The notes beneath the pieces were generated by a model. That model was given only the letters and a program-made list of their open reading frames with translations, was not told the DNA's origin and made no database searches. Made by a program: the position numbers and the translations under genes. From Bacteroidota bacterium (GTDB taxonomy: Bacteria; Bacteroidota; Bacteroidia; Bacteroidales; SZUA-534): 64,000 bases of DNA. The stretch covers positions 1 to 64,000 of the forward strand of contig QKGS01000079.1 in assembly GCA_003250355.1 (NCBI GenBank), written 5' to 3'. Shown here piece by piece: positions 14,458 to 30,213 of this stretch (position 1 is its first letter; each line of letters opens with the position of its first letter).

Positions 14458-16251
14458 ATGTCAAAATATAAAATGCACTTAATGATTTGCGGTGGTACGG
14501 GTTGTCGTGCTTCTGAAAGCAATATCATTGAGGAAAAGCTTAACAAAGAGCTTGAAGAAAAAGATTTACAAAACGATGTACAGGTAGTAATGACAGGCTG
14601 TTTCGGTTTCTGCGAAAAAGGGCCTATTGTAAAAGTACTTCCTGACAATACATTCTATACTCAGGTTACGCCAAATGATGCAAAAGAAATTATTGAAGAA
14701 CACTGCATTAAAGGTAGAAAAGTACAACGACTACTTTACCAAGATCCTGAGAAAAAAGAGCACGTTGCCGACTCTAAAAATATGGGTTTCTACAAAAAAC
14801 AAATGCGTATTGCTTTACGTAACTGTGGTGTTATTAACCCTGAAAATATTGAAGAATACATAGCACGTGACGGTTATTCAGCTCTAGGTAAATGTTTAAC
14901 AGAATTGACTCCACAACAAGTAATCAATCTGGTTAAAGATTCTGGGTTACGTGGTCGTGGGGGAGGCGGTTTCCCTACCGGGTTAAAATGGGAATTTGCA
15001 GCAAAAAACGATGCCGACCAAAAATATGTAATCTGCAACGCCGACGAAGGCGATCCGGGTGCATTTATGGATCGTTCTATACTTGAAGGTGATCCTCACT
15101 CTGTACTTGAGGCTATGGCTATTTGTGGTTACACAATGAAAGCTACAAAAGGTCTTATATATATACGTGCAGAATATCCTTTAGCTATTGAGCGTTTAAA
15201 AACTGCTATTCGTCAGGCTCGTGAATTTGGATTACTTGGAACAGATATATTAGGTACAGGTTTCGAATTCGATGTTGAGCTTCGTTATGGTGCAGGAGCA
15301 TTTGTATGTGGTGAGGAAACTGCTCTTATTCACTCTATGGAAGGTGAGCGCGGCGAACCTACTTTCAAACCACCATTCCCTGCCGTAGAAGGATACAACA
15401 AAAAACCATCGAACGTTAATAACGTTGAAACATTTGCTAACATTCCGGCCATTATTCTAAAAGGTTCAGAATGGTTTAGTGCTATTGGAACTGAAAAAAG
15501 CAAAGGTACCAAAGTATTTGCTTTAGCAGGTAAAATTAACAACGTAGGTCTTATTGAGGTTCCTATGGGTATCACTCTTCGTGAAGTTATTTACGAAATT
15601 GGTGGTGGAATTAAAGACGGAAAGAAATTTAAGGCAATCCAGACAGGTGGTCCTTCCGGAGGTTGTTTAACTGAAAAACACCTTGACATTCCTATTGATT
15701 ACGACAATTTATTAGCTTCAGGATCTATGATGGGTTCTGGTGGTATGATAGTAATGGACGAAGACGACTGTATGGTTTCTGTTGCTCAGTTCTACTTAGA
15801 ATTTACTGTTGAAGAGTCGTGTGGTAAATGTGCTCCATGTAGAGTAGGAAACAAACGCCTTCACGAAGAACTCGACAAAATATGTAAAGGTAACGCTACA
15901 AAAGAAGATTTAGATGCATTACGCAATTTGGCTAATGTTATTAAAGACACTTCTCTTTGTGGATTAGGTCAAACCTCTCCTAACCCAATATTATCAACAC
16001 TCGATAACTTCTACGATGAATATTTATCGCACGTTGTTGATAAAAAATGTCCTGCCGGAGTTTGTAAAGACTTAATGCAGTATGTAATTGATCCGGAACC
16101 ATGTGTTGGCTGTACTGCTTGTGCAAGAGTATGTCCTGTTGGAGCTATTGCAGGTGAGCGCAAAGAAGCTCATGTTATTGATACTGAAATATGTATTAAG
16201 TGTGGTGCTTGTATCGACAAATGTAAATTCAATGCTATCAGCATTCAATAA
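14458..16251 (+). CDS. hydB: NADH-binding subunit of [FeFe]-hydrogenase (NuoF-like)
   Basis: 597 residues in three parts. Residues 1-95: thioredoxin-like [2Fe-2S] domain with C11, C16, C48 and C52. Middle: NuoF core with RGRGGGGFPTGLKW (NAD), NADEGDPGAFMDRS and YGAGAFVCGEETALI (FMN), then the SLBB region and the [4Fe-4S] site ESCGKCAPCR...SLCGLG. C-terminus: two ferredoxin-type [4Fe-4S] motifs (CVGCTACARVCP and CIKCGACIDKC). It couples NADH to the hydrogenase subunit; in HydABC complexes it is where flavin-based electron bifurcation is placed. A strong Shine-Dalgarno AGGGAGGT precedes the ATG. Confidence 0.96.
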   Translation: MSKYKMHLMICGGTGCRASESNIIEEKLNKELEEKDLQNDVQVVMTGCFGFCEKGPIVKVLPDNTFYTQVTPNDAKEIIEEHCIKGRKVQRLLYQDPEKKEHVADSKNMGFYKKQMRIALRNCGVINPENIEEYIARDGYSALGKCLTELTPQQVINLVKDSGLRGRGGGGFPTGLKWEFAAKNDADQKYVICNADEGDPGAFMDRSILEGDPHSVLEAMAICGYTMKATKGLIYIRAEYPLAIERLKTAIRQAREFGLLGTDILGTGFEFDVELRYGAGAFVCGEETALIHSMEGERGEPTFKPPFPAVEGYNKKPSNVNNVETFANIPAIILKGSEWFSAIGTEKSKGTKVFALAGKINNVGLIEVPMGITLREVIYEIGGGIKDGKKFKAIQTGGPSGGCLTEKHLDIPIDYDNLLASGSMMGSGGMIVMDEDDCMVSVAQFYLEFTVEESCGKCAPCRVGNKRLHEELDKICKGNATKEDLDALRNLANVIKDTSLCGLGQTSPNPILSTLDNFYDEYLSHVVDKKCPAGVCKDLMQYVIDPEPCVGCTACARVCPVGAIAGERKEAHVIDTEICIKCGACIDKCKFNAISIQ

Positions 16252-16252
16252 T

Positions 16253-16260
16253 GAGGAGGT
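16253..16260 (+). promoter_or_regulatory. Strong Shine-Dalgarno site of hydA
   Basis: GAGGAGGT ends 7 bases before the hydA ATG and starts 1 base after the hydB stop codon. Second strong site in this operon; hndB and hydC lack one. Confidence 0.7.
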
Positions 16261-16267
16261 TTAAACA

Positions 16268-18025
16268 ATGGAATTTGTAAATTTAATAATAGATAAAAAA
16301 CCTGTAAAGGTTAAAAAAGGGACAACCGTTCTTCATGCTGCTAAAGAAGCAGGTATTGACATACCTACTCTTTGTTACATGAAACTTGATGACGTTGGCA
16401 TTGAAAATAAGCCTGGCGGTTGTCGTATTTGTGTTGTAGAATGTAAAGGTCGTAAAAACCTTGCTCCTTCTTGTGCAACTGAAGCAACTGAAGGAATGGA
16501 AATTACAACAAACAGTATGCGTGTTTTAAATGCACGTAGAACCGTAATGGAACTAATACTTTCTGACCACCCGTCTGATTGTTTAGTTTGTGCAAAATCG
16601 GGCAACTGCGAACTTCAGGATATGGCTCACAAATTAGGTGTTCGCGATATTCCTTTCAAAGGTGAACAATCAACTTACAAAGAAGATTTCTCTCCATCAA
16701 TTATCCGCGACATGGACAAATGTATTATGTGTCGTCGTTGCGAAATGATGTGTAACAAAGTTCAAACTGTTGGTGCTCTATGGGCAATTAACCGCGGTTT
16801 CGAATCTGTTGTTTCACCTGCTTTTGAAATGGATTTGGAAAAATCAACTTGTACATATTGTGGACAGTGTGTAGCTGTATGTCCTACTGCTGCATTAACT
16901 GAAGTTGACCATACTAAAAACATCATTCGTGCTTTGGCCGATCCTAATAAAACAGTTGTAGTTCAAGCTGCTCCGGCAGTACGTGCTGCACTTGGTGAAG
17001 AATTTGGTATGGAGCCAGGCACACTTGTAACCGGTAAAATGGCAGCTGCTTTACGTGCATTAGGTTTCAACAGCGTATTTGACACCGACTTTAGTGCCGA
17101 CTTAACAATTATGGAAGAAGGTACAGAGCTTCTGGGTCGCTTACAAAAGCACTTAGATGGCGATAAAACAGTAAAACTTCCTATGCTAACATCATGCTGT
17201 CCTGGATGGGTAAACTTCTTCGAAAAGCAATTCCCCGATATGCTTGATATTCCATCAACAGCTCGTTCTCCACAACAAATGTTTGGTTCTATTGCAAAAA
17301 CATATTACGCCGATAAAATTGGCGTGAAACGTGAAGATATGGTTGTTGTTTCTGTTATGCCATGTTTGGCTAAAAAATATGAGTGCCAACGCGACGAATT
17401 TAAAGTAGATGGCAACCCCGATGTTGACTACTCAATTTCTACAAGAGAACTTGCTGACTTAATAAAAGGAGCAAATATTGACTTCAACAAATTACCCGAT
17501 GAAGATTTCGATGATCCTCTAGGTGAATCAACCGGTGCCGGTGTAATATTCGGAGCTACAGGTGGTGTTATTGAAGCTGCTTGCCGTACAGCATACGAAG
17601 TTTTTACTAAAAAGAAACTTGAAAAAGTTGATTTTGAACAACTTCGCGGTATGGAAGGTATCCGTTCTGCTACTATCGACTTTGATGGTCTGCCAATTAA
17701 AATTGGTATTGCACACGGTTTAGGTAATGCTCGTAAATTACTTGAAGATATTCGTGCAGGAAAATCAGAATACCATGCAATAGAAATTATGGCGTGTCCG
17801 GGCGGATGTATCGGTGGTGGTGGCCAACCATTACACCATGGCGATTCGTCTATTCTTAAAGCAAGAACTGCAGCTATATATCGTGAAGATGCTAATAAGC
17901 CTATCCGTAAGTCTCATGAGAACCCATCTATTGTAAAGCTTTACAAAGAGTTCTTAGGCGAACCTTGTGGTGAAAAATCACACAAGCTATTACACACTCA
18001 CTATTTCGATCAAAATAAAAAATAG
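16268..18025 (+). CDS. hydA: [FeFe]-hydrogenase catalytic subunit
   Basis: 585 residues. Order: plant-type [2Fe-2S] domain (cysteines in the region 36-70, CRICVVEC), His-Cys [4Fe-4S] motif (HPSDCLVCAKSGNC, 101-114), two [4Fe-4S] ferredoxin motifs (CIMCRRCEMMC and CTYCGQCVAVC, 152-205), H-cluster domain with P1 TSCCPGW (C310, C311), P2 MPCLAKKYE (C366) and P3 MACPGGCIGGGGQP (C510, C514), and a C-terminal small-subunit-like tail (LYKEFLGEPCG). All H-cluster ligands are present, so it should be active, reversibly reducing protons or oxidising hydrogen. The maturases HydE, HydF and HydG are not in this window. Confidence 0.97.
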   Translation: MEFVNLIIDKKPVKVKKGTTVLHAAKEAGIDIPTLCYMKLDDVGIENKPGGCRICVVECKGRKNLAPSCATEATEGMEITTNSMRVLNARRTVMELILSDHPSDCLVCAKSGNCELQDMAHKLGVRDIPFKGEQSTYKEDFSPSIIRDMDKCIMCRRCEMMCNKVQTVGALWAINRGFESVVSPAFEMDLEKSTCTYCGQCVAVCPTAALTEVDHTKNIIRALADPNKTVVVQAAPAVRAALGEEFGMEPGTLVTGKMAAALRALGFNSVFDTDFSADLTIMEEGTELLGRLQKHLDGDKTVKLPMLTSCCPGWVNFFEKQFPDMLDIPSTARSPQQMFGSIAKTYYADKIGVKREDMVVVSVMPCLAKKYECQRDEFKVDGNPDVDYSISTRELADLIKGANIDFNKLPDEDFDDPLGESTGAGVIFGATGGVIEAACRTAYEVFTKKKLEKVDFEQLRGMEGIRSATIDFDGLPIKIGIAHGLGNARKLLEDIRAGKSEYHAIEIMACPGGCIGGGGQPLHHGDSSILKARTAAIYREDANKPIRKSHENPSIVKLYKEFLGEPCGEKSHKLLHTHYFDQNKK

Positions 18026-18030
18026 TTATT

Positions 18031-18516
18031 ATGTCAACAGCAGATATTAAATTAAACCCTGTGGAAGTAGAAAAGCTTAAAGCAGCTTGCGCAGAATTAA
18101 ATAACGAACCCGGTGAATTAATCAATGCTTTACACAAAGCTCAAAGCTTATTTGGTTATTTGCCGGCTGAAGTTCAAGAGATTATTGCTGAAGAAATGAA
18201 TGTTCCGGTTGCGAAAGTTTACGGAGTTGTTACATTCTACTCATTCTTTACAATGACACCTAAAGGAAAACACCCTATTTCAATTTGTACTGGTACAGCT
18301 TGCTATGTACGCGGTGCCGACAAAGTAGTGGAAGAATTCAAGAAAAAACTTAACCTTGAAGTTGGTGAAACATCTGAAGATGGTAAATTCTCACTAAGCT
18401 GCTTGCGTTGCGTTGGAGCTTGTGGTCTTGCACCGGTTGTTATGGTTGGAGAAAAAGTATACGGACGTGTATCTCCCGACGGTGTTGCTGAAATTCTTGA
18501 AGAATATGCAGACTAA
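18031..18516 (+). CDS. hydC: NuoE-like [2Fe-2S] subunit of [FeFe]-hydrogenase
   Basis: 161 residues, NuoE family: N-terminal helical bundle (LINALHKAQSLFGYLP, VAKVYGVVTFYSFF) and thioredoxin-like [2Fe-2S] domain with the four cysteines in CTGTACYVRG and CLRCVGACGLAP. It passes electrons between the flavin subunit and the hydrogenase. Only 5 bases after hydA; last in the operon. In many operons of this type the NuoE gene comes first, so the order hndB-hydB-hydA-hydC is a variation. A strong terminator follows. Confidence 0.96.
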   Translation: MSTADIKLNPVEVEKLKAACAELNNEPGELINALHKAQSLFGYLPAEVQEIIAEEMNVPVAKVYGVVTFYSFFTMTPKGKHPISICTGTACYVRGADKVVEEFKKKLNLEVGETSEDGKFSLSCLRCVGACGLAPVVMVGEKVYGRVSPDGVAEILEEYAD

Positions 18517-18645: not shown

Positions 18646-19020
18646 ATGGATAGTATAAATTTATCACCAACAGATGAAAGCCCCGAAGTAATATTAGATG
18701 CTACTTCTGGTGAATTTAAATTTAAAGGAAAGTCATTGCCTGAAGATGTAGCCAAATTCTATAAACCTATTCATGAATGGATAGATGAATATGCAAAAAA
18801 TCCGAATCCTGATACAAAAATAGAATTTGAATTCGAATATTTTAATTCTGCTTCTTCAAAACAAATACTCGACATATTAGAAAAGTTTGCTGTAATTTCA
18901 AACACCCCTAATAACGTGTCTGTTGTTTGGAAATTCCTTGAAGATGACGAAGATATGGAAGAAGCAGGCGAATCATATTCCGAAATAGTTAATATCCCTT
19001 TTGAAATGATGCCTTATTAG
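18646..19020 (+). CDS. SiaC-family (DUF1987) regulatory phosphoprotein, copy 1
   Basis: 124 residues, one SiaC/DUF1987 domain: SPEVILDATSGEFKFKGKSLPED at the N-terminus, FYKPIHEWIDEY helix, then FEYFNSASSKQILDIL and a C-terminal VVWKFLEDDEDMEE segment. In the Pseudomonas SiaABCD system a Thr in the YFNT motif is phosphorylated by SiaB and dephosphorylated by SiaA. Here the equivalent residue is Ser68 (YFNS), while copy 2 at 37622 keeps Thr69, so the two may be distinguished by kinase or phosphatase. Followed after 4 bases by a hydrolase gene, so probably cotranscribed. Confidence 0.88.
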   Translation: MDSINLSPTDESPEVILDATSGEFKFKGKSLPEDVAKFYKPIHEWIDEYAKNPNPDTKIEFEFEYFNSASSKQILDILEKFAVISNTPNNVSVVWKFLEDDEDMEEAGESYSEIVNIPFEMMPY

Positions 19021-19024
19021 AATT

Positions 19025-20374
19025 ATGTTGCGCTTAGGTATATTGGTATACTTATGGATTTCAATAACCATAACCGTTTATAGTCAAATTTATCACCAAA
19101 ATACAGGCAAAGTAATCCCATCAAACACGCCTGACACCATTATTTGGTCAGAAGGTATTTTCAATAATTATAATGCATTTTTCGGAACTCTGTTAGTTAA
19201 AGAGAACCGAAAAATGCATAATTCAAGATTAATATCTATTCCTGTAATTAGAATACCTTCTATTAATTCAAATTCGTCAGAGTCTCCATTGTTTATTATG
19301 AATGGAGGTCCGGGCGAATCAAACATTAACAAACTCTTATTTTCTGATTTAATTATTGAAAACCGCGACATTATATTCGTAGGTTACCGTGGTGTTGATG
19401 GAAATATAAAACTTGACTGCCCCTGCTATAAAAATCTAATCATAAATAATCATATTACAATCAATAACAACAGCAACATTTTTACAACAGCCGCTGATTC
19501 ATGCATTAAAATATGGAGCAAACTCAAAATTGACATTAGCGGTTATAATATGCACGAAGTTATTATTGATTTCAACACAGTAAGAAAAATTTTGGGCTAT
19601 AATAAAATTTCATTACAATGCTACAGCTTTGGCACTTTACTTGGACAACAATTTTCAAGTACTTACCCTGAATATATTGATAAACTTATACTTATTGCCC
19701 CCCGAAAACCATACGACTTTTTATTTACTCCGGAACAAATAAATAATGGTAGCTCAATTATTATACAGCACTATTTTAAAACATTTTTACAAACAAGCAT
19801 TAAAAAAGAAGAAACCCAAAACTATTTAAACGAATGTTTTAAAAATATCATTGATAATTGCCAATGGCTAAATGAATACAAATTATATATATTATTCTTT
19901 TCAAAATTATATGACATAAACAATGCTTTCGAGATACTTAAAGCTTTTGATAATGCCAACAATGGTGATTATAGCGACATAACAAGAATATATAATAGCT
20001 TCTTTAACCATTTTATGAATAACAATATCATTGGCGATATTTTTATTAAAAAGCAAGGGTATATAAGCTACCATACTGATACAAATTCAATCGCCGGAAA
20101 AATTGCAATGGCTGTTAACAATACTTACTCTCCTGTTATTACAAATAATAAATATTACAATACTTCTAACATATATATGCCAAATAAGATTGATATGCTT
20201 ACTATTTTCGGAGAACTCGATATTGTATCATCTCCTGAATACTTTTTTGATTCTATGAATATAACTTTACATTCTTCAAATATTGAAGTAATTGAAAATG
20301 CCTGCCACCTTGATATTTTTTATTCCTATAAAGAAAAACTCGACTCTGTGATATATAAATTCATGGAAAAATAA
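19025..20374 (+). CDS. Secreted alpha/beta-hydrolase (S33-like)
   Basis: 449 residues with signal peptide (1-20, ending VYSQ). Alpha/beta-hydrolase features: oxyanion loop FIMNGGPGES (90-99), VGYRGVDG, nucleophile S201 in CYSFGT (Cys in place of the usual Gly at the first position of G-x-S-x-G), D399 in FGELDIVSSP and H428 in ENACHLD. This pattern is that of secreted proline-iminopeptidase-like hydrolases. Substrate unknown. The protein is unusually rich in Asn and Ile, with long Asn-rich stretches (NNHITINNNSN). Probably in an operon with the preceding SiaC-like gene. Confidence 0.82.
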   Translation: MLRLGILVYLWISITITVYSQIYHQNTGKVIPSNTPDTIIWSEGIFNNYNAFFGTLLVKENRKMHNSRLISIPVIRIPSINSNSSESPLFIMNGGPGESNINKLLFSDLIIENRDIIFVGYRGVDGNIKLDCPCYKNLIINNHITINNNSNIFTTAADSCIKIWSKLKIDISGYNMHEVIIDFNTVRKILGYNKISLQCYSFGTLLGQQFSSTYPEYIDKLILIAPRKPYDFLFTPEQINNGSSIIIQHYFKTFLQTSIKKEETQNYLNECFKNIIDNCQWLNEYKLYILFFSKLYDINNAFEILKAFDNANNGDYSDITRIYNSFFNHFMNNNIIGDIFIKKQGYISYHTDTNSIAGKIAMAVNNTYSPVITNNKYYNTSNIYMPNKIDMLTIFGELDIVSSPEYFFDSMNITLHSSNIEVIENACHLDIFYSYKEKLDSVIYKFMEK

Positions 20375-20771: not shown

Positions 20772-21173
20772 TTAAAAATACAAAGCAGACACATAAGTAT
20801 TATTAACTCCATCATTAACAAAATACTTCCACTCTATTGTCTTATAATCAGCTGAAATTACTCCCGTTCCGGAAAAAGAAATACCTAATGTCGATGTTCC
20901 TGTTATTTTAAGAGTTCCTTTAGGATCTTCTGTTACATATACTTCCTTTGATTCTGATATCCCCTGATTATAAAAATTATTTATAACATATTCATTATCC
21001 TTACTAAGTGTTGATGGGTTACGAATAATACTTACCTGATAAGTTCTCTGACCTAACAGATCGGAATGTTCATTACAATTCCATGTGCCAATAATTGTAT
21101 TAGCAGGTCGTTCCATTTTCTCACATGAAACAAGCAATATGAGAATAGCACTAATAATTATAATTATCCTCAT
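20772..21173 (-). CDS. Small lipoprotein, lipocalin-like beta-barrel candidate
   Basis: 133 residues. Lipoprotein signal with lipobox LLVSC and lipidated C17, followed by an all-beta sequence beginning NTIIGTWNCNEH and ending in paired strands (YKTIEWKYFVND, TYVSALYF). The GTW start and strand pattern are lipocalin-like, but no family was recognised. It starts 14 bases after the stop of the large OmpA-type gene, so it is the last gene of that operon and probably a surface or periplasmic accessory. Confidence 0.65.
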   Translation of the reverse strand: MRIIIIISAILILLVSCEKMERPANTIIGTWNCNEHSDLLGQRTYQVSIIRNPSTLSKDNEYVINNFYNQGISESKEVYVTEDPKGTLKITGTSTLGISFSGTGVISADYKTIEWKYFVNDGVNNTYVSALYF

Positions 21174-21187
21174 AACGGTAAACTTTA

Positions 21188-24100
21188 TTATTTCCCAATT
21201 ACAACAATCTCAACACGTCTATTTTGTCTTCGCCCTTCATTAGTATCATTGTCGGCTATCGGACGCTTATTCGCAAAACTCAAATACTTAACCCTGTTAC
21301 ATCCATTTGCAATCAAATAATTTGCAACAATCTTAGCTCTTTCTAATGCTAAATCATTATATGTTTCTTTTGTTTCTAAATCATCGGCGTGCCCATGAAC
21401 AGCAATTTTAACTGAAGGATTTTTCTTCAATGCCTTAACCAAACGTTCCAATTCAGGGAAACTCGTTGGTGGTATTTCAGTACTTACCGGGTCAAAGTTA
21501 AGTGTTTTCATTGGTATAAGCTGTCCAACAGTAATACCCTTTAATAATACCTCTTTCTTAAGATTCTTAAATGTCACCACTTGCTGACTATGTAGCTTCT
21601 CGGCATAATACCAATACTCATCGGCAGTTACCTCTACAATGTAATCATCGCCGGCAATGAAACTCAAGGTAAATACCCCCGATTTAACCCCTGTTTTACC
21701 AGAAGTTACTACTCGTCCGTTCTTATCAAGTATTCTCACATCGGCTACAATAGGTTTAAGGGTAGTTGCATCCTTAACTATACCACTCAAATTTGTTCTT
21801 CGTACAATTTCAACTCCGGGTTGATCAATATCTGCTGTAAATGAAGACGAAAAATTGATTTTTCTTTTCTTCTCATTAAATATAAAGTTTACCTCAAACT
21901 GTCTGTATCCATTAAGCTGAACATGATAATTATTCTGCTCAAGCGTAAAATTCTCATAAAAAATATTATTTACACTAACGCTATACTTATCGACATTAGG
22001 AACATAAATTTTAAACTCTCCGCTTGCATTTGTTAGAGCTGAGTACTTTTTTCCATAAGAATCCTCTGCTGTAATTTTAATATTACTAATATCAATATTA
22101 CCCAAATTTGATAACTTAGAACGATTTAATATAATATTTCCAAAAATTAAATTATTCTCAGTGAAAGGTATCTCTATATTTTTATCTTTATCAATCTTAA
22201 CAAGTTGCATAGTTTCATCAGTACTAAATGCCCCTTCAATTTTTGAAACCGGAAAATACTCTAACAAATAGAATCCTTCAGGTATATTTTCGTAAGTTAC
22301 AGTTCCATTAAAATCAGACAATAAATCGGCTGTCATAAAATAACCGGTTGTATTATAGCCATCCTCCTCTTCGTTTTCATCTTTTCTAATAGATAGCAAT
22401 ACATTTTTAACACCCGGCTCTCCATCGTCGCGAACTTTATTTCCATTAAAATCTTTATAAAATATAACATTCAAATCATGATAACGATACTGTGGCTGAT
22501 TAATAATAATATCCTTACGTAACCTTAACTCAAAATATGTACTTGTGTATTTATACCTCTCCTCTGTTACCCTATCAATATTTGTTTGATAATTAACTGT
22601 GTTAGTTAAAGATACTTTCCATGTTTTTGCAAATTCACTCGACAACTCATTCGACCAATAAATACGTGTTACTTTCGATGTAATATCTCTGTCGAAATTT
22701 AGTCTGGAAATAAAACGCAAATAATCTGATGCCAATGGAACATCTAAATAGGGCATTACCCTTATTACCTGAGGTAATTTTGAACCTATAAAATAAAGAT
22801 ACTGCCTATTTACAGTATTGGGTCCATGAAAATATGTTGCTGATAAACCCCAAATTCTGCTTCTGTAACCAAGAGTTGTTTTAAAATTAAACCAATGCTT
22901 ATTCATATCAGGCAATACTGAATCGTATGATTCGGGATAATCAGATACCCATGAATATCCACCCTTAAAATTCAACGTAAAAACATCAACCGACGATGGA
23001 ATTCTAAATTTCAAATCACCCATCAACAATGAGCTATATGTAGCAAAATCATCTTTTATTTCACTCGAATAAACCTGATTAGTTCCACGCCCTTCAAATA
23101 CAACACCGGCAGCATAACTTACTTTTTTATTAAGTGTTTCATTCAAATAAAGTTTTGTTTCACTATAATTTGTGTAATTGCTCTGAACCAATGAATCACC
23201 TACGTATGAAACCGGTGTATATTTCATATTGTAATAATTCAAATACAATGACTTTCTATTAACCAAAGGCATAAAAAAATTGCCATAAATTCTCAATAAA
23301 CCTCCCGAACCGTAGTAAGTTGGCGATGTGTTCATTACTGTAACATTGAACTTCGATTTCTTAATAGTATTACTATATCCTATTATGCTTCTTATTCCTG
23401 TTTGTGTTTTGGGTTCACTATAATTCCAATCGGCTATTCCTAAAGCCATTTTTATATTAAAACTACCTATTTTTGGAAATTGAGTTGCAAAATTCACAAA
23501 CCCTACTTTTGACTGAACCTTTCTAGTATCATTCTCAACAAACGACACCCCTCCGGCAACAGAATAATCAGAAAATGTATGCTGATATGATGTTCCCAAA
23601 TTTATTGCATCATAAAACAATGAACGGGTTGCTATTGCCTCAAATTTAGAACGTTTAAATGTATAATCGAACATTCCTCCCCGTCCGTACATACTTTGCC
23701 CCATATCTTTAGATATATCTCCTACCCCAAATTCTACTCCTCCTTTTGCATAACTCAATATGTATCGTCCATATTTCCATGGGTCATCCCAAAATGTTTT
23801 ACCATATCCTCGCAGCATATAATGAAACTCCGATTCGTCTTTAAATAAAACATTCCCGTCAACATAAATAGAATAAGATGGCTTTACTGTAGTAAATAAG
23901 TTCTGTGCCGCAACCTCTATAGTAAGAAATTTATAATTGTCGGGAATATTATTTTCATAATAGCTACTCAATTCTTTTAACCATACAACGCTACTAAAAG
24001 CAGTATCGGAAGTATATGCTTTAATGTTTACTTTGTGAAATTTCTTTTGATAATAATTAACCTCCTTGGTAAGATATACCGGTAATTGAATTATTGTATC

Positions 24101-24721
24101 TGACAATGAAGGTACCGTTACCTCCATCCTAAATAAGTTATCTTTGGTTCCTACAGCCTCTATAGTCCTGTCAAAAGTGAAATCGAGATACATAATCTCA
24201 TCCAAATTACCATTATTAGCAATTTTCAAATAAATATCGGTTCCTTTTTTTGCTTCGTCAATATATTCAACCCTACTGACAGGTTTGAACTTCATATCTT
24301 TTATTTTTGGAATATTAACAAAGCTATACTGATTTTTTATTTGCTCTCCATTTAAATCGGCTATTGAAGCCACTATTGAATAACCAATACCTCCTTTTAC
24401 ATTATGGGAAGGGGCAACCCTAAAAGGCAAAAAAATTGAATCGTGAGGTTCCAGTGTTATTCGTTGATTCTGAATACCCATAAAAGACCAATTAGCCGGA
24501 TAACTGAAATTAGTTTGAAACTCAACCGAAGAGTTCGATGGATTCTTTATCTTTACTGTATTAAAAAAAGATTCTTTTGCTGACACTTCAACTTTTTGCC
24601 TAAGAAACTCTATTTCCAGCTGATCGTGAGCATCTTCTAAAAAATAAAACTGAGAATGCATTTTACCGCTTAACAGCAATAAAAAAAGAAACACCAATAT
24701 ATTTCTAATAATAAAATGCAT
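21188..24721 (-). CDS. Large outer-membrane protein with Ig-like domains, barrel and C-terminal OmpA domain (usher-like candidate)
   Basis: 1177 residues. Signal peptide (1-23); two Ig-like domains (about 25-235; the first, with VKIKNPSNSSVEFQTNFSYP, resembles NEW3-type folds); a long beta-barrel region (about 255-780) with alternating aromatic strands and a YGRYILSYAKGGVEFGVGDIS segment; an SdrD/Cna-B-like domain (YKDFNGNKVRDDGEPGV); further beta-sandwich domains; and an OmpA peptidoglycan-binding domain (about 1065-1177, HGHADD, LALERAKIVANYL, GRRQNRRVEIVV). The layout, periplasmic Ig domains around a big barrel, recalls usher proteins but with a wall anchor. Start overlaps the previous stop by one base (TAATG), so translation is coupled. 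Confidence 0.7.
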   Translation of the reverse strand: MHFIIRNILVFLFLLLLSGKMHSQFYFLEDAHDQLEIEFLRQKVEVSAKESFFNTVKIKNPSNSSVEFQTNFSYPANWSFMGIQNQRITLEPHDSIFLPFRVAPSHNVKGGIGYSIVASIADLNGEQIKNQYSFVNIPKIKDMKFKPVSRVEYIDEAKKGTDIYLKIANNGNLDEIMYLDFTFDRTIEAVGTKDNLFRMEVTVPSLSDTIIQLPVYLTKEVNYYQKKFHKVNIKAYTSDTAFSSVVWLKELSSYYENNIPDNYKFLTIEVAAQNLFTTVKPSYSIYVDGNVLFKDESEFHYMLRGYGKTFWDDPWKYGRYILSYAKGGVEFGVGDISKDMGQSMYGRGGMFDYTFKRSKFEAIATRSLFYDAINLGTSYQHTFSDYSVAGGVSFVENDTRKVQSKVGFVNFATQFPKIGSFNIKMALGIADWNYSEPKTQTGIRSIIGYSNTIKKSKFNVTVMNTSPTYYGSGGLLRIYGNFFMPLVNRKSLYLNYYNMKYTPVSYVGDSLVQSNYTNYSETKLYLNETLNKKVSYAAGVVFEGRGTNQVYSSEIKDDFATYSSLLMGDLKFRIPSSVDVFTLNFKGGYSWVSDYPESYDSVLPDMNKHWFNFKTTLGYRSRIWGLSATYFHGPNTVNRQYLYFIGSKLPQVIRVMPYLDVPLASDYLRFISRLNFDRDITSKVTRIYWSNELSSEFAKTWKVSLTNTVNYQTNIDRVTEERYKYTSTYFELRLRKDIIINQPQYRYHDLNVIFYKDFNGNKVRDDGEPGVKNVLLSIRKDENEEEDGYNTTGYFMTADLLSDFNGTVTYENIPEGFYLLEYFPVSKIEGAFSTDETMQLVKIDKDKNIEIPFTENNLIFGNIILNRSKLSNLGNIDISNIKITAEDSYGKKYSALTNASGEFKIYVPNVDKYSVSVNNIFYENFTLEQNNYHVQLNGYRQFEVNFIFNEKKRKINFSSSFTADIDQPGVEIVRRTNLSGIVKDATTLKPIVADVRILDKNGRVVTSGKTGVKSGVFTLSFIAGDDYIVEVTADEYWYYAEKLHSQQVVTFKNLKKEVLLKGITVGQLIPMKTLNFDPVSTEIPPTSFPELERLVKALKKNPSVKIAVHGHADDLETKETYNDLALERAKIVANYLIANGCNRVKYLSFANKRPIADNDTNEGRRQNRRVEIVVIGK

Positions 24722-25245
24722 TATGGAATCCCCGTATATTGTTTTAATTCAAAATCTAATACTGATGTAAAAAAGCCGGTACTCATATTAGTTAAAGCTC
24801 CCATATTATACGAAATTGAAACCGAAGCATTTACAGTCTGCCCTAATCCACTGTCAGCTATTGGCCAATAACACAAAGGTTGAAATGTATCGGACAATAA
24901 AATTGATGGTAAATCAATTCCCCCATTAGTACTAATTGTACTAATTCTCATTTTATCCAAATCAATTGGAGTAGCTCCATAATCAGGGTCAAAATTGGAA
25001 TAAGACGATTTTACATACAAAGCCATACCGTCTACTGTTAATGTCAATCCGGCAGAGTCAACAAATTGCACATTGTATGTTGTATAATTATTGAGTGTTA
25101 TACCGAAATTAATACTATTCAATGATCTATAATAAAAATCTAACCTACCGGTACCGCTTACATCATATATCTTTACACTATACCCCTGACTTAACAAATC
25201 AAACGATGATAATAATAAAAAGAATATGTAAAATATCTTTTTCAA
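24721..25245 (-). CDS. Secreted beta-rich protein, minor-subunit candidate
   Basis: 174 residues with a signal peptide (ending LLSQG). The mature part is made of short beta strands (YSVKIYDVSG, LDFYYRSLNSINFGITL, YNVQFVDSAGLTLTV) and ends FTSVLDFELKQYTG. No family recognised. Its stop codon overlaps the start of the 1177-residue outer-membrane protein, and it follows the 218-residue secreted gene beyond an attenuator-like terminator. The position suggests a minor or tip subunit for the large barrel protein; this is inference from order only. Confidence 0.6.
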   Translation of the reverse strand: MKKIFYIFFLLLSSFDLLSQGYSVKIYDVSGTGRLDFYYRSLNSINFGITLNNYTTYNVQFVDSAGLTLTVDGMALYVKSSYSNFDPDYGATPIDLDKMRISTISTNGGIDLPSILLSDTFQPLCYWPIADSGLGQTVNASVSISYNMGALTNMSTGFFTSVLDFELKQYTGIP

Positions 25246-25288
25246 TGGTAAATAATTCTATAACTATTAAATACAATTCATAATATAC

Positions 25289-25324
25289 AAAAAAGTCAAA
25301 CAGTTAACAACTGTCTGACTTTTT
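25289..25324 (-). terminator. Intercistronic terminator/attenuator after major-subunit gene
   Basis: Arms AAAAGTCAAACAGTT and AACTGTCTGACTTTT around a 3-base loop, one mispair, with A-run and T-run on opposite sides so it can act on either strand. It lies in the 99-base gap between the 218-residue gene and the downstream 174- and 1177-residue genes, so it would give much more subunit than barrel mRNA. Confidence 0.85.
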
Positions 25325-25344
25325 ACAATATCTTAAAAAAGTTT

Positions 25345-26001
25345 CTAGTCGTGAGCTTTTAACGATACAAATACGTTAGTTGAATAACGGTCAGCAGGTA
25401 ACCCCAAACTTAATAATGTTTGACCTGCAGGTACTCTGGCAGCACTTACAACAGCTGTACCAAGTTCCCACTGAATTTGAAACTTGTTAACATTAATATC
25501 TCCTGCACCACCGGTTGTTGCCGAAGGTAATGATTCAATAATTTCAAACGGAGCATTAGTTAATAACTGTATTGCACTAGGGTCAACACCTGCACCTGCT
25601 AAATTAATATCGGTACCTACGGTATGTCCAACTCCAGTATAATCAACAACATAACCTACCATATCTAATGGAAATCCGGCATTGGCACCAACTCCTGAAG
25701 CTCCTGTACCTGTAATATCGCTACCAATAAAAGTAGCATCTTCGGCATATAACTCTACATCGTAATCGATAGACGATGCGATAGTAAATTCTGTTGTGTG
25801 ATTAGGTGTATTTGCAATACCATACTCGTATTGGTTCAATGTATTAACTGCAAAATCGATATTTCCACCTGCTGTTACATTAAGACGCAAAATGGTATTT
25901 AAAGTAATTGATACCGGAATTGTTGCATTATCAACTACTGCTTGTCCAAAGCTGATTATTCCAATACTGCTTAGGGCGATAAGAGAAAAAATCTTTTTCA
26001 T
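25345..26001 (-). CDS. Secreted beta-sandwich protein, major fibre-subunit candidate
   Basis: 218 residues with a signal peptide (1-19, ISFGQ). The mature N-terminus begins with an alternating hydrophobic strand (TIPVSITLNTILRLNV), followed by Gly/Ala/Thr-rich beta strands, and the protein ends VFVSLKAHD. Low charge, no cysteine; composition is pilin- or adhesin-like. No known family recognised. First gene of its operon, with own -7 box and a strong terminator right after it, as for an abundant subunit. The alternating N-terminal strand would suit donor-strand pairing, but this is a guess. Confidence 0.6.
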   Translation of the reverse strand: MKKIFSLIALSSIGIISFGQAVVDNATIPVSITLNTILRLNVTAGGNIDFAVNTLNQYEYGIANTPNHTTEFTIASSIDYDVELYAEDATFIGSDITGTGASGVGANAGFPLDMVGYVVDYTGVGHTVGTDINLAGAGVDPSAIQLLTNAPFEIIESLPSATTGGAGDINVNKFQIQWELGTAVVSAARVPAGQTLLSLGLPADRYSTNVFVSLKAHD

Positions 26002-26048
26002 ATTCTATTTGTTTAAGTTTCCATTTTATAATTAACACATTTTAAAGA

Positions 26049-26056
26049 CAAAGATA
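26049..26056 (-). promoter_or_regulatory. -7 box of the surface operon
   Basis: TATCTTTG on the minus strand, 48 bases before the start of the 218-residue subunit gene. Perfect TAnnTTTG; -33 TTG not evident. Confidence 0.5.
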
Positions 26057-26133
26057 AGCTAAATATGTTCATTATACGTAACTAATATGACTAAATAATT
26101 ATTTTTCTACACTAATTATTCATTTTTTTTGCG

Positions 26134-28026
26134 TCAATTAAAGTCTAATTTAAAACCAATAACCAAAACATCATCTATCTGATAATAATCCTTTCCTATC
26201 CAATTCTCAAACTCCTGCTCTAATATTTCTTTCTGTTTTTCAAAACTTTCAGAATGAATTTGATGAAGCAAACTTCTAAATTTCTTAATCATATATTTTC
26301 TACCCTCGTCGCCCCCAAACTGATCAATAAAGCCGTCGGAAAAAATATAGAAACAAGTAGGTCCATTTATTTCAATTGTATGTAAATCATATGTTGCACT
26401 TTCCTCTTTTCCTCCAACTCCCGACTTACTCCCCTTTACCTGAGATACTTCACCGTTTTGAACATATATTAAAGGATTCTTTGCACCTGCAAATTCAATG
26501 ATTTTCCTTTCCGGATCAATAGAACAAAGTGCCATATCCATACCATCCTGATTGCTTGTTTCATCTTGTTTTAATGTAGAACGAACACTTTGGTGCAATG
26601 CTTCAAGTATAAGGTCGGGTCTGGTAATACCTTTTCCCGATATTTCATCAAGCAGATTATATCCAATCATACTCATAAATGCCCCGGGAACACCGTGTCC
26701 TGTACAATCGACGGCAGAAATAAGAATCTTTTTTGATGACTCCTCAACATCTTCATCTTTTGATTTTCCATGCATATTGAATATTTTAAATATATTCGAT
26801 TTTGCATCAACTTCCCTAAACCAATAAAAATCTCCACTTACAACATCACGAGGTTTAAAAAGAACAAATGAGTCTTTAACTATTTGATTAAGCTTATCTG
26901 TTTTTGGAAGCAACGCTTTTTGAATTCCTTTTGCATAATTAATACTATGCTGAATATTGTCGCGCTGTTTTTTTATCTGCCCCATCGCTTCCTCTATCTG
27001 ATCATTCTTTTCTGCAATTTCTTTATTCTGAGCCTCCAGCTTTATATTAGCGCGTCTCCTTGCTCTATTTGAATAAAGCATAAAAACAGCTAAAATAATC
27101 ATTAAAATAAGCCCTACCGCAATCATTTGAGCTCTGGCTCTTTGCTCCTTTATTTGTAAATCTTGTAACTCTTTTTGCTGATTTAGGTTTTCTATCTCAA
27201 GCTCCTTTTGTTTAGCAATTCTGCCGGCATAAGCAAGACTATCTTCTTTAATCATAATAGATAGGCGCATAGAGTCTCTAGTTTGTTCAAATAATTGTTG
27301 TCGTATTTTAAACAATTCGGCAGCAAGTCTTTTTTCCTCTTCTGTTTTAGCAACCTTTTGCTGTGTTTCAAGTATTTGCTCAGTAAACTCTTCGTTTATG
27401 CTTTCCCCTTCAAGAAATTTCATATATGAATCGGCCTTTTCCATATATTCCTGATACTTTTTCATATTCCCAGCCAACTCATAATTGGTGCCAAGTTGTT
27501 GGTAACAAGCTAATATTAATCGAGGGTCTTTATTATCGGTAGCCAATTTTAAACTCTCTTCTAATTTTGCAATAGCATCTTCATAAAAACCTAATAACTG
27601 ATTAATATAGGCTACGTCAATTAAGCCTGCTGAGACACTAGTTTTATTACCTACCTTTCGCCTAAGCAGAAGGCTTTTTTCAAAATATTCCAGAGCAAAT
27701 TCAAGTTCTTCTGCATCGGTATATAATACAGCCATATTGGTATATACATTTTTAGCATCGTCGAACCTATCGTTTTGGAGAAATAAGTCGGCCGAAATAC
27801 TAAAATTACTAATAGCATCATCAATAACACCTGCACGCCAATATATTAAAGCTATTTTACTATAAGTTGAGGCTGCTCCTGCTGCATTGTTCCCATTAAT
27901 TTGAATATTTGCAGTCTCTTTCAAACGGTCAACCTGCTGTTGTTCATCACCACTTAACGTTCTGAAATTTTGGCTATAAATATTACTTATTAAAAATGAG
28001 GTCAATATCAATATATATATTCTCAT
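26134..28026 (-). CDS. TPR-transmembrane-SpoIIE-type protein phosphatase, copy 1
   Basis: 630 residues: signal peptide (1-18), TPR repeats (about 30-205), coiled coil (210-298), one membrane helix (300-319), second coiled coil (325-365), PP2C/SpoIIE phosphatase domain (385-630). Catalytic metal-binding motifs are present: SGDFYW, AVDCTGHGVPGAFMSMIG (D440), DGMDMAL and FSDGFIDQFGG. The TPRs face the periplasm and the phosphatase the cytoplasm. The domain is of the SiaA type that removes phosphate from SiaC proteins, copies of which lie at 18646 and 37622. Located between the surface subunit operon and the divergent chaperone-like gene. Confidence 0.9.
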   Translation of the reverse strand: MRIYILILTSFLISNIYSQNFRTLSGDEQQQVDRLKETANIQINGNNAAGAASTYSKIALIYWRAGVIDDAISNFSISADLFLQNDRFDDAKNVYTNMAVLYTDAEELEFALEYFEKSLLLRRKVGNKTSVSAGLIDVAYINQLLGFYEDAIAKLEESLKLATDNKDPRLILACYQQLGTNYELAGNMKKYQEYMEKADSYMKFLEGESINEEFTEQILETQQKVAKTEEEKRLAAELFKIRQQLFEQTRDSMRLSIMIKEDSLAYAGRIAKQKELEIENLNQQKELQDLQIKEQRARAQMIAVGLILMIILAVFMLYSNRARRRANIKLEAQNKEIAEKNDQIEEAMGQIKKQRDNIQHSINYAKGIQKALLPKTDKLNQIVKDSFVLFKPRDVVSGDFYWFREVDAKSNIFKIFNMHGKSKDEDVEESSKKILISAVDCTGHGVPGAFMSMIGYNLLDEISGKGITRPDLILEALHQSVRSTLKQDETSNQDGMDMALCSIDPERKIIEFAGAKNPLIYVQNGEVSQVKGSKSGVGGKEESATYDLHTIEINGPTCFYIFSDGFIDQFGGDEGRKYMIKKFRSLLHQIHSESFEKQKEILEQEFENWIGKDYYQIDDVLVIGFKLDFN

Positions 28027-28160
28027 AACATAATTCTTTATTTTTCAATATAAAAAAATCACTTGTTAAATTAGCATTTCTAAACAACAAAGTGATATGA
28101 GGGTTTAAAAGTAATTCAATATTATTTTCATAACAAAAACAAAAGTAAAACTATTTTATA

Positions 28161-28168
28161 TAATTTTG
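28161..28168 (+). promoter_or_regulatory. -7 box of chaperone-like gene
   Basis: TAATTTTG, a perfect TAnnTTTG box 58 bases before the ATG at 28227, in the divergent spacer. No TTG at -33. Confidence 0.4.
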
Positions 28169-28226
28169 TTTTCTTAAATGTCAAACATTTATTTTTTCAC
28201 TAACTTAGTATAAACATAGACTAAAA

Positions 28227-29042
28227 ATGGATAGAGCAATAAAAATTATTGGATTATTACTAATAACACTTATATTAAACATTAATAATATAAATTCTCA
28301 AGACTTTGAAGTATCCCCGGTTAAGCTTTTTTATAATGCAGAGCCCGGAGAAGCTCAAACTAAATATGTTTCTGTTAAGAATCACAGTAATAAAACACAA
28401 ACATTTATAATAAATATTAGCGACTATAATGTTAACAACAAAGGACAAGGCGAATACCTTGATGCAGGTAGTTTGAAGAATAGTATAGCAGATTGGGTAA
28501 GTATAGCACCATCATTCTTTGAACTTGAACCAAATGCTGAAAAGGAAATAACTATTACTCTTCAACAGCCTGCCAATGATTATAGTTCAAAGTGGGGAGT
28601 TTTATTTTTTAGAACAGCCAAAGAACAAACTGCTTATTCGGCCGATAAAAGCTTGCAAACATCAATGAATGTAAGTGCAAGAATTGTAGTTGACATTTAT
28701 CAAACACCAAGTTCAAACAAAAATTATAAAGTTACAATAGGTCATTTATCGGAATTAATCACCGAAACAATTGACTCTACAAAAACATATACTGCTGTTG
28801 TAAATAATCTTGAAAATATAATAACAAACTGTAAAGTATTTTTAGTGGCGACAAATATTCATACAGGCGTTGAAAAAACTTACCCTCCGACAGAATTTGT
28901 ATTAATGCCCAAAAGCTCAAGAAAAATACAACTTGAGTTACCTAATAATCTTGAAAAGGGCACTTATTCTCTAGCTGCAATTTTAGATTATGGCAGCAGA
29001 ACCAATCTTGAAGGGACACAAATAGTAATAACTATTGATTAA
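28227..29042 (+). CDS. Periplasmic PapD/DUF916-like chaperone candidate
   Basis: 271 residues with signal peptide (ending NINSQ). Two Ig-like domains: the first starts FEVSPVKLFYNAEPGEAQTK, with VKNHSNKTQTFIINISDY and ending KWGVLFFRT; the second has YTAVVNNLENIITNCKVF. This is the organisation of pilus chaperones and of DUF916-type proteins that accompany WxL surface proteins. No membrane anchor at the C-terminus. Divergent from the TPR phosphatase and near the secreted subunit and barrel genes, so it may escort those subunits. The assignment rests on pattern only. Confidence 0.62.
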   Translation: MDRAIKIIGLLLITLILNINNINSQDFEVSPVKLFYNAEPGEAQTKYVSVKNHSNKTQTFIINISDYNVNNKGQGEYLDAGSLKNSIADWVSIAPSFFELEPNAEKEITITLQQPANDYSSKWGVLFFRTAKEQTAYSADKSLQTSMNVSARIVVDIYQTPSSNKNYKVTIGHLSELITETIDSTKTYTAVVNNLENIITNCKVFLVATNIHTGVEKTYPPTEFVLMPKSSRKIQLELPNNLEKGTYSLAAILDYGSRTNLEGTQIVITID

Positions 29043-29052
29043 ATTGAATATA

Positions 29053-30213
29053 ATGCGGATACTAATAATAACCTCATACATATTATTATTTTCTGCAATA
29101 TCAGTAACAGCCCAGGATACCATTCGTGCATTTTACAATAATGGAGAATTAAAAGAAGAATTCCTAGGCTACTTTTCCGGCTCCGACACTATTCGTAACG
29201 GCTATTATAAATACTTTATTAAAAACAAAATAAGCCAAACAGCTTATTATGACAACAACAAACTACATGGTAACGTAACAATATATTACGATAACGGGAA
29301 AATAAAAGCCGAATATATATACATTAACGGATTACGAAATAACAATTATAAGTTCTATGATTATATAGGAACACTTAGAATCGAAGGTTCATATAAGAAC
29401 GACTCATTAACAGGCATAACGAAAGTATTTGACATAAAAGGAAATATTGCCAGTTCCACAATGTATAAAAACAATAAAAAAGAAGGGATAGAACTCATAT
29501 ACGGAAAATACAACCGTGTACTTTCAAAAATAGAATACAAATGCGATACTGTTAACGGTTTGTACGAAACTTTTCATGAAGACGGAAACCTAAATTATAG
29601 AGGAAAAAAAATTGGTAAGCATTTTAATGATACCCTATATGTATATTACAACAATGGCGACTTACAACGCAAGTGCTATTATAAAAACGGAGTCTTAAAT
29701 GGAGAACTAATAACATACTATAATCACAATAAAATAAAATCGGTAACCCAGTATAACGAAGGACAAAAAGTTGATGAGTTTATTGAATACTTTACCGATG
29801 GCAGCATTTCTCAAAAAGGACAGTTCTTTAACAACAATAAAAATGGCAAATGGATAGCTTACTACCCTAACAACGCCATGTTTTCTGAAGGAAACTTTAA
29901 AAATGGTAAATTTGATGGCGAATGGCTAATATTTTTTGAAAATGGCAGTATTAAACAACGAGGATGGTATACTAATGGGAAAGCATTGAGAGATTGGTGT
30001 TTTTACCACCCTAATGGAAGTATATGGAAAAAAGGGAAATATATTAATGACTTAAAAGAGGGAATTTGGGAACACTACAATGAGAATGGAAAGCTTGAAA
30101 AAATTTTTTATTACGAGCACGATATATTAAAACCTTATTCTATTATGAAATTATTAGACAACTGGGTTAAAGTATATATAAGTGGTGATAATATAATTCA
30201 AGTATTTCCATAA
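29053..30213 (+). CDS. Secreted YwqK/MORN-like repeat protein
   Basis: 386 residues from the ATG at 29053, which begins a proper signal peptide (MRILIITSYILLFSAISVTAQ); an in-frame ATG at 29035 would overlap the previous gene by 8 bases and is less likely. The rest is about a dozen tandem repeats of 20-24 residues with the pattern Y-NG-x-K-E-x-x-Y-x-x-G-x-x-x-G-x-W, as in YwqK-type proteins often named antitoxins. Nothing here supports a toxin partner; secreted MORN-like beta solenoids are more likely structural or binding. Probably cotranscribed with the chaperone-like gene. Confidence 0.78.
   Translation: MRILIITSYILLFSAISVTAQDTIRAFYNNGELKEEFLGYFSGSDTIRNGYYKYFIKNKISQTAYYDNNKLHGNVTIYYDNGKIKAEYIYINGLRNNNYKFYDYIGTLRIEGSYKNDSLTGITKVFDIKGNIASSTMYKNNKKEGIELIYGKYNRVLSKIEYKCDTVNGLYETFHEDGNLNYRGKKIGKHFNDTLYVYYNNGDLQRKCYYKNGVLNGELITYYNHNKIKSVTQYNEGQKVDEFIEYFTDGSISQKGQFFNNNKNGKWIAYYPNNAMFSEGNFKNGKFDGEWLIFFENGSIKQRGWYTNGKALRDWCFYHPNGSIWKKGKYINDLKEGIWEHYNENGKLEKIFYYEHDILKPYSIMKLLDNWVKVYISGDNIIQVFP

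Follow-up and report, generated by a model that had tools for sequence, protein, structure and literature searches.

We analysed a 64,000-nucleotide stretch of a Bacteroidales genome (the window), which relatives place close to Salinivirgaceae, and, within it, the gene cluster at positions 20772-30213, which an earlier note had read from the sequence alone as a chaperone-usher-like surface-fibre system. All of the open reading frames (ORFs) that the note had placed there were found. The cluster encodes an 1177-amino-acid (aa) barrel protein, two small secreted proteins that we call subunits A and B, a phosphatase, a two-domain chaperone, a secreted MORN-repeat protein and a lipoprotein, with the following features:

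21188-24721, minus strand: usher-like outer-membrane barrel protein, 1177 aa (AlphaFold2, Pfam, family alignment)
23936-24616, minus strand: N-terminal Ig-like pair of the barrel protein, residues 36-262 (AlphaFold2 strands, weak similarity to the chaperone profile)
22508-23926, minus strand: predicted beta-barrel, residues 266-738 (AlphaFold2/DSSP, VIA)
21872-22483, minus strand: C-terminal Ig-like domains of the barrel protein, residues 747-950 (VIA alignment with the C-terminal region of FimD)
21218-21496, minus strand: OmpA peptidoglycan-binding domain, residues 1076-1168 (Pfam, 7.2e-15)
24721-25245, minus strand: subunit B, 174 aa, TTG start, pilin-like (paralogy with subunit A, gene order)
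25290-25324, minus strand: intrinsic-terminator-like hairpin, 16 bp, directly 3' of subunit A (hairpin search, folding)
25345-26001, minus strand: subunit A, 218 aa, candidate major fibre subunit of the TLP family (AlphaFold2, structural and profile matches)
25894-25941, minus strand: N-terminal extension of subunit A, residues 21-36, donor-strand candidate (conservation, spacing relative to B)
26134-28026, minus strand: SiaA-like phosphatase with TPR, transmembrane and SpoIIE/PP2C parts, 630 aa (PF07228, 8.6e-17)
28227-29042, plus strand: two-domain periplasmic chaperone related to WxLIP, 271 aa (PF06030, hhalign)
28623-28709, plus strand: conserved chaperone block EQ..DK..G...RI...Q.P, residues 133-161, candidate subunit-binding hairpin (conservation)
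29035-30213, plus strand: secreted MORN_2-repeat protein, 392 aa, coupled to the chaperone gene (PF07661, 2.8e-23)
20772-21173, minus strand: small accessory lipoprotein, 133 aa (lipobox-like N-terminus)
18646-19020, plus strand: SiaC-like phosphoprotein, candidate partner of the phosphatase (PF09345, 1.6e-36)

The conserved module comprises the chaperone gene with its MORN-repeat neighbour (the 392-aa ORF in the window), and the genes for the phosphatase, subunit A, subunit B and the barrel, in that order. Because this arrangement recurs in dozens of Bacteroidota genomes, we regard the module as more than a chance assembly. Homologous clusters were present in 11 related genomes, some of them interrupted by contig ends. 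We scanned 38 loci from named genomes; these come in part from the same genomes as a second set of 60 relatives (L038 is G002 and L048 is G006) and include one near-identical pair (L059 and L069). The Pfam tables of two of the scans give the best 25 families. In this 38-locus scan, subunit B lay directly upstream of the barrel gene in 29 of 29 testable loci, subunit A was the next gene upstream in 26 of 26, and the phosphatase gene preceded subunit A in 19 of 22. The chaperone and MORN genes were near the barrel gene in 17 of 20 loci tested, and a MORN gene adjoined every chaperone gene present. Among the 60 relatives, the barrel occurred in at least 12 genomes (counted from the matches listed, with matches to the OmpA tail alone excluded), subunit A in 11 and the chaperone in 9; among the matches listed, subunit A and the chaperone occurred only within the 12 barrel-carrying genomes. 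The survey of gene neighbourhoods across Bacteroidota, proposed beforehand as a check, has thus returned a conserved co-occurrence.

In a sample of 296 genomes from the phylum, 22 had a match to the chaperone profile, and 20 neighbourhoods were examined (here and in the survey of TLP loci below, profile matches are unfiltered and refer to a nominal database size of 500). Nine neighbourhoods from six same-class genomes (L104-L112) all had a 918-948-aa barrel homologue beside the chaperone and small subunits. These homologues matched the barrel profile at 5e-15 to 1e-32 and end without an OmpA tail; the two barrel families aligned by hhalign at 100% over 898 columns. The remaining eleven, more distant neighbourhoods were mixed in content, and loci L115-L117, from one family of the phylum, had WxLIP-like chaperone genes with no barrel gene nearby. 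Several of the same-class clusters also contain genes for proteins of 345-478 aa in which the C-terminal part gives a match to the subunit profiles, an arrangement reminiscent of two-domain tip adhesins. In L105 and L106 we observed several tandem, partly near-identical extended subunits, which suggests subunit duplication or variation.

The chaperone profile also matched two Deinococcus plasmids, at 8e-20 (L125) and 7e-15 (L126, Deinococcus deserti plasmid 2), where the barrel profile reached only 0.09 and 3e-3. On both plasmids the chaperone match lies beside an 839-1021-aa CarboxypepD_reg/SdrD_B protein and small secreted proteins (L126 8396-12852, L125 7882-13547), and these clusters are a possible diderm relative outside Bacteroidota.

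The 1177-residue protein had been described as a barrel with flanking Ig-like domains and an OmpA wall anchor, and structure prediction, a further check set beforehand, bears out the barrel. In the AlphaFold2 model (34 sequences; mean pLDDT 84.0, pTM 0.55), residues 36-256 form two Ig-like domains ahead of the barrel at 266-738; further Ig-like domains follow at 747-950, and the OmpA domain comes last. Pfam recognizes SdrD_B at 755-822, CarboxypepD_reg at 878-927 and OmpA at 1076-1168. DSSP assigned about 26 strands to residues 266-738, mostly with pLDDT above 90 (predicted range 24 to 26). On structural comparison with VIA, residues 298-949 of the model aligned with residues 174-833 of FimD (9fy9_D) at Z 17.0, the C-terminal Ig domains included, and further barrel matches were PapC (Z about 15) and LptD (Z 14.3). 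Foldseek returned FimD at 1.0e-11 and the WxLIP chain 9i25_C at 6.1e-6, and a weak profile match linked the N-terminal Ig pair with the chaperones (hhalign 72%). The OmpA anchor is present in the window protein but did not hold as a general feature: it is lineage-specific, several relatives lack it and relatives of 910-996 aa stop before it. Because of this absence from relatives, we dropped the OmpA tail as a defining part of the family.

The chaperone candidate of the earlier note was also substantiated. The 271-aa protein matched WxLIP_PGBD (PF06030) at 30.0 bits, above the cut-off of 27.3, and, with signal peptides removed, hhalign aligned chaperone profiles with WxLIP across the two domains at 95-98% (213-221 columns). 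The highest value was 97.6%, over 221 columns, while 15 column-shuffled controls of the Bacteroidales chaperone profile, which itself scored 95.4%, reached 0.3% at best. The best PDB sequence matches of the chaperone profile were EfmWxLIP1 chains (E about 0.1). Residues 133-161 form the most conserved block, in which E133, Q134, D140, K141, G146, R152, I153, Q159 and P161 are invariant or nearly so in 20 chaperone sequences. In a published study, a hairpin of WxLIP is predicted by AlphaFold2 to supply a strand that fills a gap in the WxL sandwich (PMC10599100); the block at 133-161 may be the equivalent of this hairpin and is a candidate for binding the subunits. DUF3324 (HBD) had no Pfam match in the chaperone, though the hhalign alignment to WxLIP spans the second domain. 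The chaperone has no C-terminal membrane helix, its chain ending in GTQIVITID.

Subunits A and B have no Pfam match and are paralogous to each other (hhalign 99%). They differ at the N-terminus: the spacing from Q20 to the GG pair is 24-25 residues in 28 of 28 subunit A sequences, and the corresponding spacing from Q20 to G31 is 8-13 residues in 30 of 30 subunit B sequences. Few stretches of A are as well conserved as this additional segment, DNAxIPVSVTLN, in which hydrophobic residues alternate and P29 and N35 are invariant across the 28 sequences. In the AlphaFold2 model of subunit A (pLDDT 83.6), the extension is predicted to be non-strand or unstructured (pLDDT about 61-70) beside a well-folded core. 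A segment that is conserved yet predicted to be disordered is what a donor strand would show. At the level of sequence, then, a donor-type extension is present on A and absent from B, leaving one subunit type without it.

The model of subunit A most resembled TLP-1b and TLP-1a, subunits of solved filaments, with Z of 9.8 and 9.7, while the next entries (TasA, 6.8) lay three units lower; Foldseek gave 3.9e-6 for TLP-1b and 1.6e-5 for TLP-1a. We take the TLP entries to be pond-water filaments whose source has been in question. A profile of 27 sequences of the A family and its relatives matched only TLP-2 (2.3e-4) and TLP-1 (5.3e-4) out of 177,635 PDB sequences, and the match begins within the extension. 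Neither the Bacteroidales A family alone (A6) nor the same-class pilins alone (A11) matched a PDB sequence. A 58-residue TLP stretch matched 1 of 395 genomes of a phylum sample and 8 of 390 genomes of that genome's order, including the first one; 7 of these 8 loci are from one genus. The chaperone and barrel were present in all 8, the genes run barrel, chaperone, extended subunit, unextended subunit in 7, and the one subunit compared from locus L160 matched TLP-2 with an E value of 4.9e-9. A 2026 review describes pond-water filaments seen by cryo-electron microscopy (cryo-EM) as not conclusively identified (PMC12967142).

Two other assignments of the subunits were tried and rejected. A relation of subunit B to the S-layer protein 9f8f (E 1.2) was disregarded. 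As true WxL domains, the L104-L112 pilins and subunit B scored 87% and 60% by hhalign with signal peptides, and about 3% and 14-18% without them; a merged subunit set without signal peptides reached at most 35% and was kept as a hint only.

Directly after subunit A lies a 16-bp hairpin with a T tail (25324-25290). A stem of at least 10 bp was found at this position in 22 of 29 loci, with 0.9 expected from shuffles, and the fold z was below -2 in 25 of 29 loci versus 0 of 29 control stretches inside B; the search covered at least 70 bases after A and, in the short-gap loci L051 and L057, passes the ORF start of B. From locus to locus the sequence of the stem varies, and it is therefore position and structure that are kept. 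Such a hairpin would fit with A being made in excess of B and the barrel. Before subunit A, the Bacteroidota promoter consensus TAnnTTTG is found in the window (at -55) and at 6 of the 28 other loci, once inside the gene; we discarded it as not conserved.

The signalling phosphatase reported inside the locus is the 630-aa ORF, to which Pfam assigns TPR and SpoIIE/PP2C parts. It matched NCBIfam SiaA at 7.2e-58 but below the cut-off. A SiaC-like gene and an abhydrolase gene lie just outside the cluster (18646-20374), both recurring beside it in close relatives, and SiaC was near the cluster in 7 of the 15 loci of the 38-locus scan with enough flank. By analogy with the SiaABCD phospho-switch, from which the window phosphatase differs in having a TPR sensor half, phosphatase and SiaC may switch fibre production; SiaB and SiaD partners were not identified here. 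A second TPR and SpoIIE/PP2C phosphatase of the same design is encoded at 38804-40555 on the minus strand of the window.

We consider it highly probable that the locus encodes a chaperone-usher-like surface-fibre system distinct from the classical pathway. The predicted barrel with FimD and PapC among its structural matches, together with the co-occurrence of the genes, supports the interpretation of the earlier note, which had also remarked that no usher or pilin sequence was recognizable. In agreement with that remark, the window proteins had no Pfam match to usher, PapD, pilin or WxL domains. The usher domain PF00577 did not match the window barrel protein at E<=1, and it was above the cut-off in 0 of 60 genomes, this one included, while the E. 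coli control was positive. PF00345 (PapD) likewise gave no match to the window chaperone at E<=1, and hhalign of the chaperone to E. coli FimC gave 0.1%. With no match to an usher, a Fim profile or a WxL domain, the system would work like a chaperone-usher pathway without meeting the sequence definitions of that family.

Under this reading, subunits A and B would cross into the periplasm via Sec, where the WxLIP-like chaperone would hold each of them, probably lending a strand of its conserved hairpin to the incomplete beta-sandwich. The 1177-aa protein would act as the usher: its N-terminal Ig domains would take the chaperone-subunit complexes, the barrel of about 26 strands would be the exit pore, and the C-terminal Ig domains would act like the C-terminal domains (CTDs) of ushers, with the OmpA domain tethering the window version to peptidoglycan. 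Lacking an extension, subunit B is a candidate initiating or tip subunit; copies of A would then join in this polarity, each placing its extension into the preceding subunit, to form the filament. The terminator after A would maintain an excess of A, and a SiaA/SiaC-type phospho-switch would probably govern the timing of fibre production.

Several observations weigh against this interpretation. In structural comparison the barrel is closest to MtrB (6r2q_B, residues 260-738) and not to an usher (Z 20.7 versus 17.0), and the predicted barrel contains no plug-sized insert, the longest gap between strands in residues 266-738 being about 24 residues. Classical pilins matched subunit A at Z 5-6 only, within the uninformative range of the tool, and viral capsid jelly-rolls were among its Foldseek matches (E 0.02-0.2). 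Profile comparison found no sequence relation to E. coli FimA, FimC, FimD, FimF or FimG (hhalign at most 6%). The chaperone gene lies away from the barrel gene in 3 of 20 loci (in L048 the two are on different contigs), and the chaperone was not found in 3 of the 12 barrel genomes, two of which have cut contigs and one of which is 70% complete.

The absence of Fim-type sequence signal could also mean that the locus is a member of the classical pathway that has diverged past detection by Pfam. The functional parts are the same, the barrel aligned with FimD including the CTDs, and a chaperone relative in L105 reached 14.7 bits against PapD_N, short of the cut-off of 23. The FimD barrel has 24 strands and a plug, however, whereas about 26 strands and no plug are predicted here, the chaperone is of WxLIP type, and no sequence signal links the proteins with FimC or FimD. 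We regard such descent as possible but doubtful; it differs from the favoured reading in descent only, and the likelihoods we attach to the two are not exclusive. Homology of the chaperone with WxLIP raises a different alternative, a diderm version of a WxL surface coat, in which a static complex of WxLIP-like and WxL-like proteins would sit on peptidoglycan or the cell surface, anchored by the OmpA barrel; no long fibre would form and nothing would be secreted through the barrel. The OmpA domain and a GWxLxV-like motif in subunit B, along with the weak WxL profile match of the merged set (35%), are consistent with such a coat. It is nevertheless improbable, given that subunit A is homologous to solved filament subunits, that the conserved extension is found in A only, that the chaperone has no C-terminal membrane helix and that many of the barrels have no OmpA domain.

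Export by another route, either type IX secretion or as the lipoproteins of type V pili, would make the barrel an unrelated porin or conduit. MtrB as the best barrel match points that way, as does a type IX sorting domain elsewhere in the window, on a beta-porphyranase-like protein (47295-49376, minus strand). Neither subunit A nor B matched a sorting domain in Pfam or NCBIfam, though, a Cys near the processing site was found in 0 of 28 A sequences (4 of 30 B sequences have one), and the genes for barrel, B and A adjoin one another wherever this could be tested; we think this explanation very unlikely. An MtrB-like electron conduit, for which the evidence is the fold match, was set aside.

Comparison with known systems places the chaperone-usher-like reading among them. 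The module shares with classical chaperone-usher pili (Fim, Pap, Csu, CFA/I) a chaperone and subunits with and without an N-terminal extension, and its predicted barrel with C-terminal Ig-like domains resembles theirs, although MtrB scores higher than FimD. A terminator follows the major subunit in classical operons, as it does here. The window proteins differ from the classical ones in having no PF00577 or PF00345 match, no plug, about 26 strands, an OmpA tail and a WxLIP-type chaperone. With the WxL/WxLIP clusters of Firmicutes, the module has in common a chaperone homologous over two Ig domains and two subunit genes per cluster. Unlike those clusters, it has an outer-membrane barrel and subunits that are filament-family proteins, and it has no DUF3324, no C-terminal membrane helix and no WxL domain (PF13731 matched neither subunit nor the rest of the genome); the system therefore shares the chaperone, but not clearly the rest, with WxL clusters. 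Type V (Mfa/Fim) pili are surface fibres of Bacteroidales, as the product of this locus would be, but subunit A has no lipobox, the window subunits have no Pfam fimbrillin match, and a chaperone and barrel are present. The TLP-1a and TLP-1b cryo-EM filaments (PDB 9ikj, 9ikk) are homologous to the subunit A family in sequence and fold, and the genes of TLP relatives occur in clusters of this type; the TLP chains have 236-237 residues compared with 218 for subunit A.

The lipoprotein that the earlier note had included is a 133-aa ORF with a lipobox-like N-terminus, as read from its sequence, and among 11 loci it had homologues beside the module only in L033 (52%) and L037 (32%). The signal peptide of the MORN_2-repeat protein probably begins at an ATG near 29053. 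Beside the SiaC-like gene, adjoining genes at 14458-18516 (plus strand) resemble subunits of an [FeFe]-hydrogenase complex by sequence reading.

In the titles and abstract openings of the open-licence literature, we found no description of this system. We lean slightly towards a broader view in which it is a separate chaperone-usher class of several Bacteroidota lineages, possibly also of Deinococcus, with a plugless usher of about 26 strands and a chaperone of WxLIP descent, that builds TLP-type filaments, the WxL/WxLIP proteins and the diderm pathway being two branches of one donor-strand system. Classical ushers are absent at the cut-off from the 60 relatives, yet all the functional parts of such a pathway are found in the module. 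It also links what are presumably the unidentified cryo-EM filaments to a gene family and to a candidate assembly machine, so that the origin of those filaments becomes testable. Finally, the module connects a diderm fibre chaperone with the WxL-interacting protein of Firmicutes, which suggests that donor-strand chaperoning is older or more widespread than the classical pathway.

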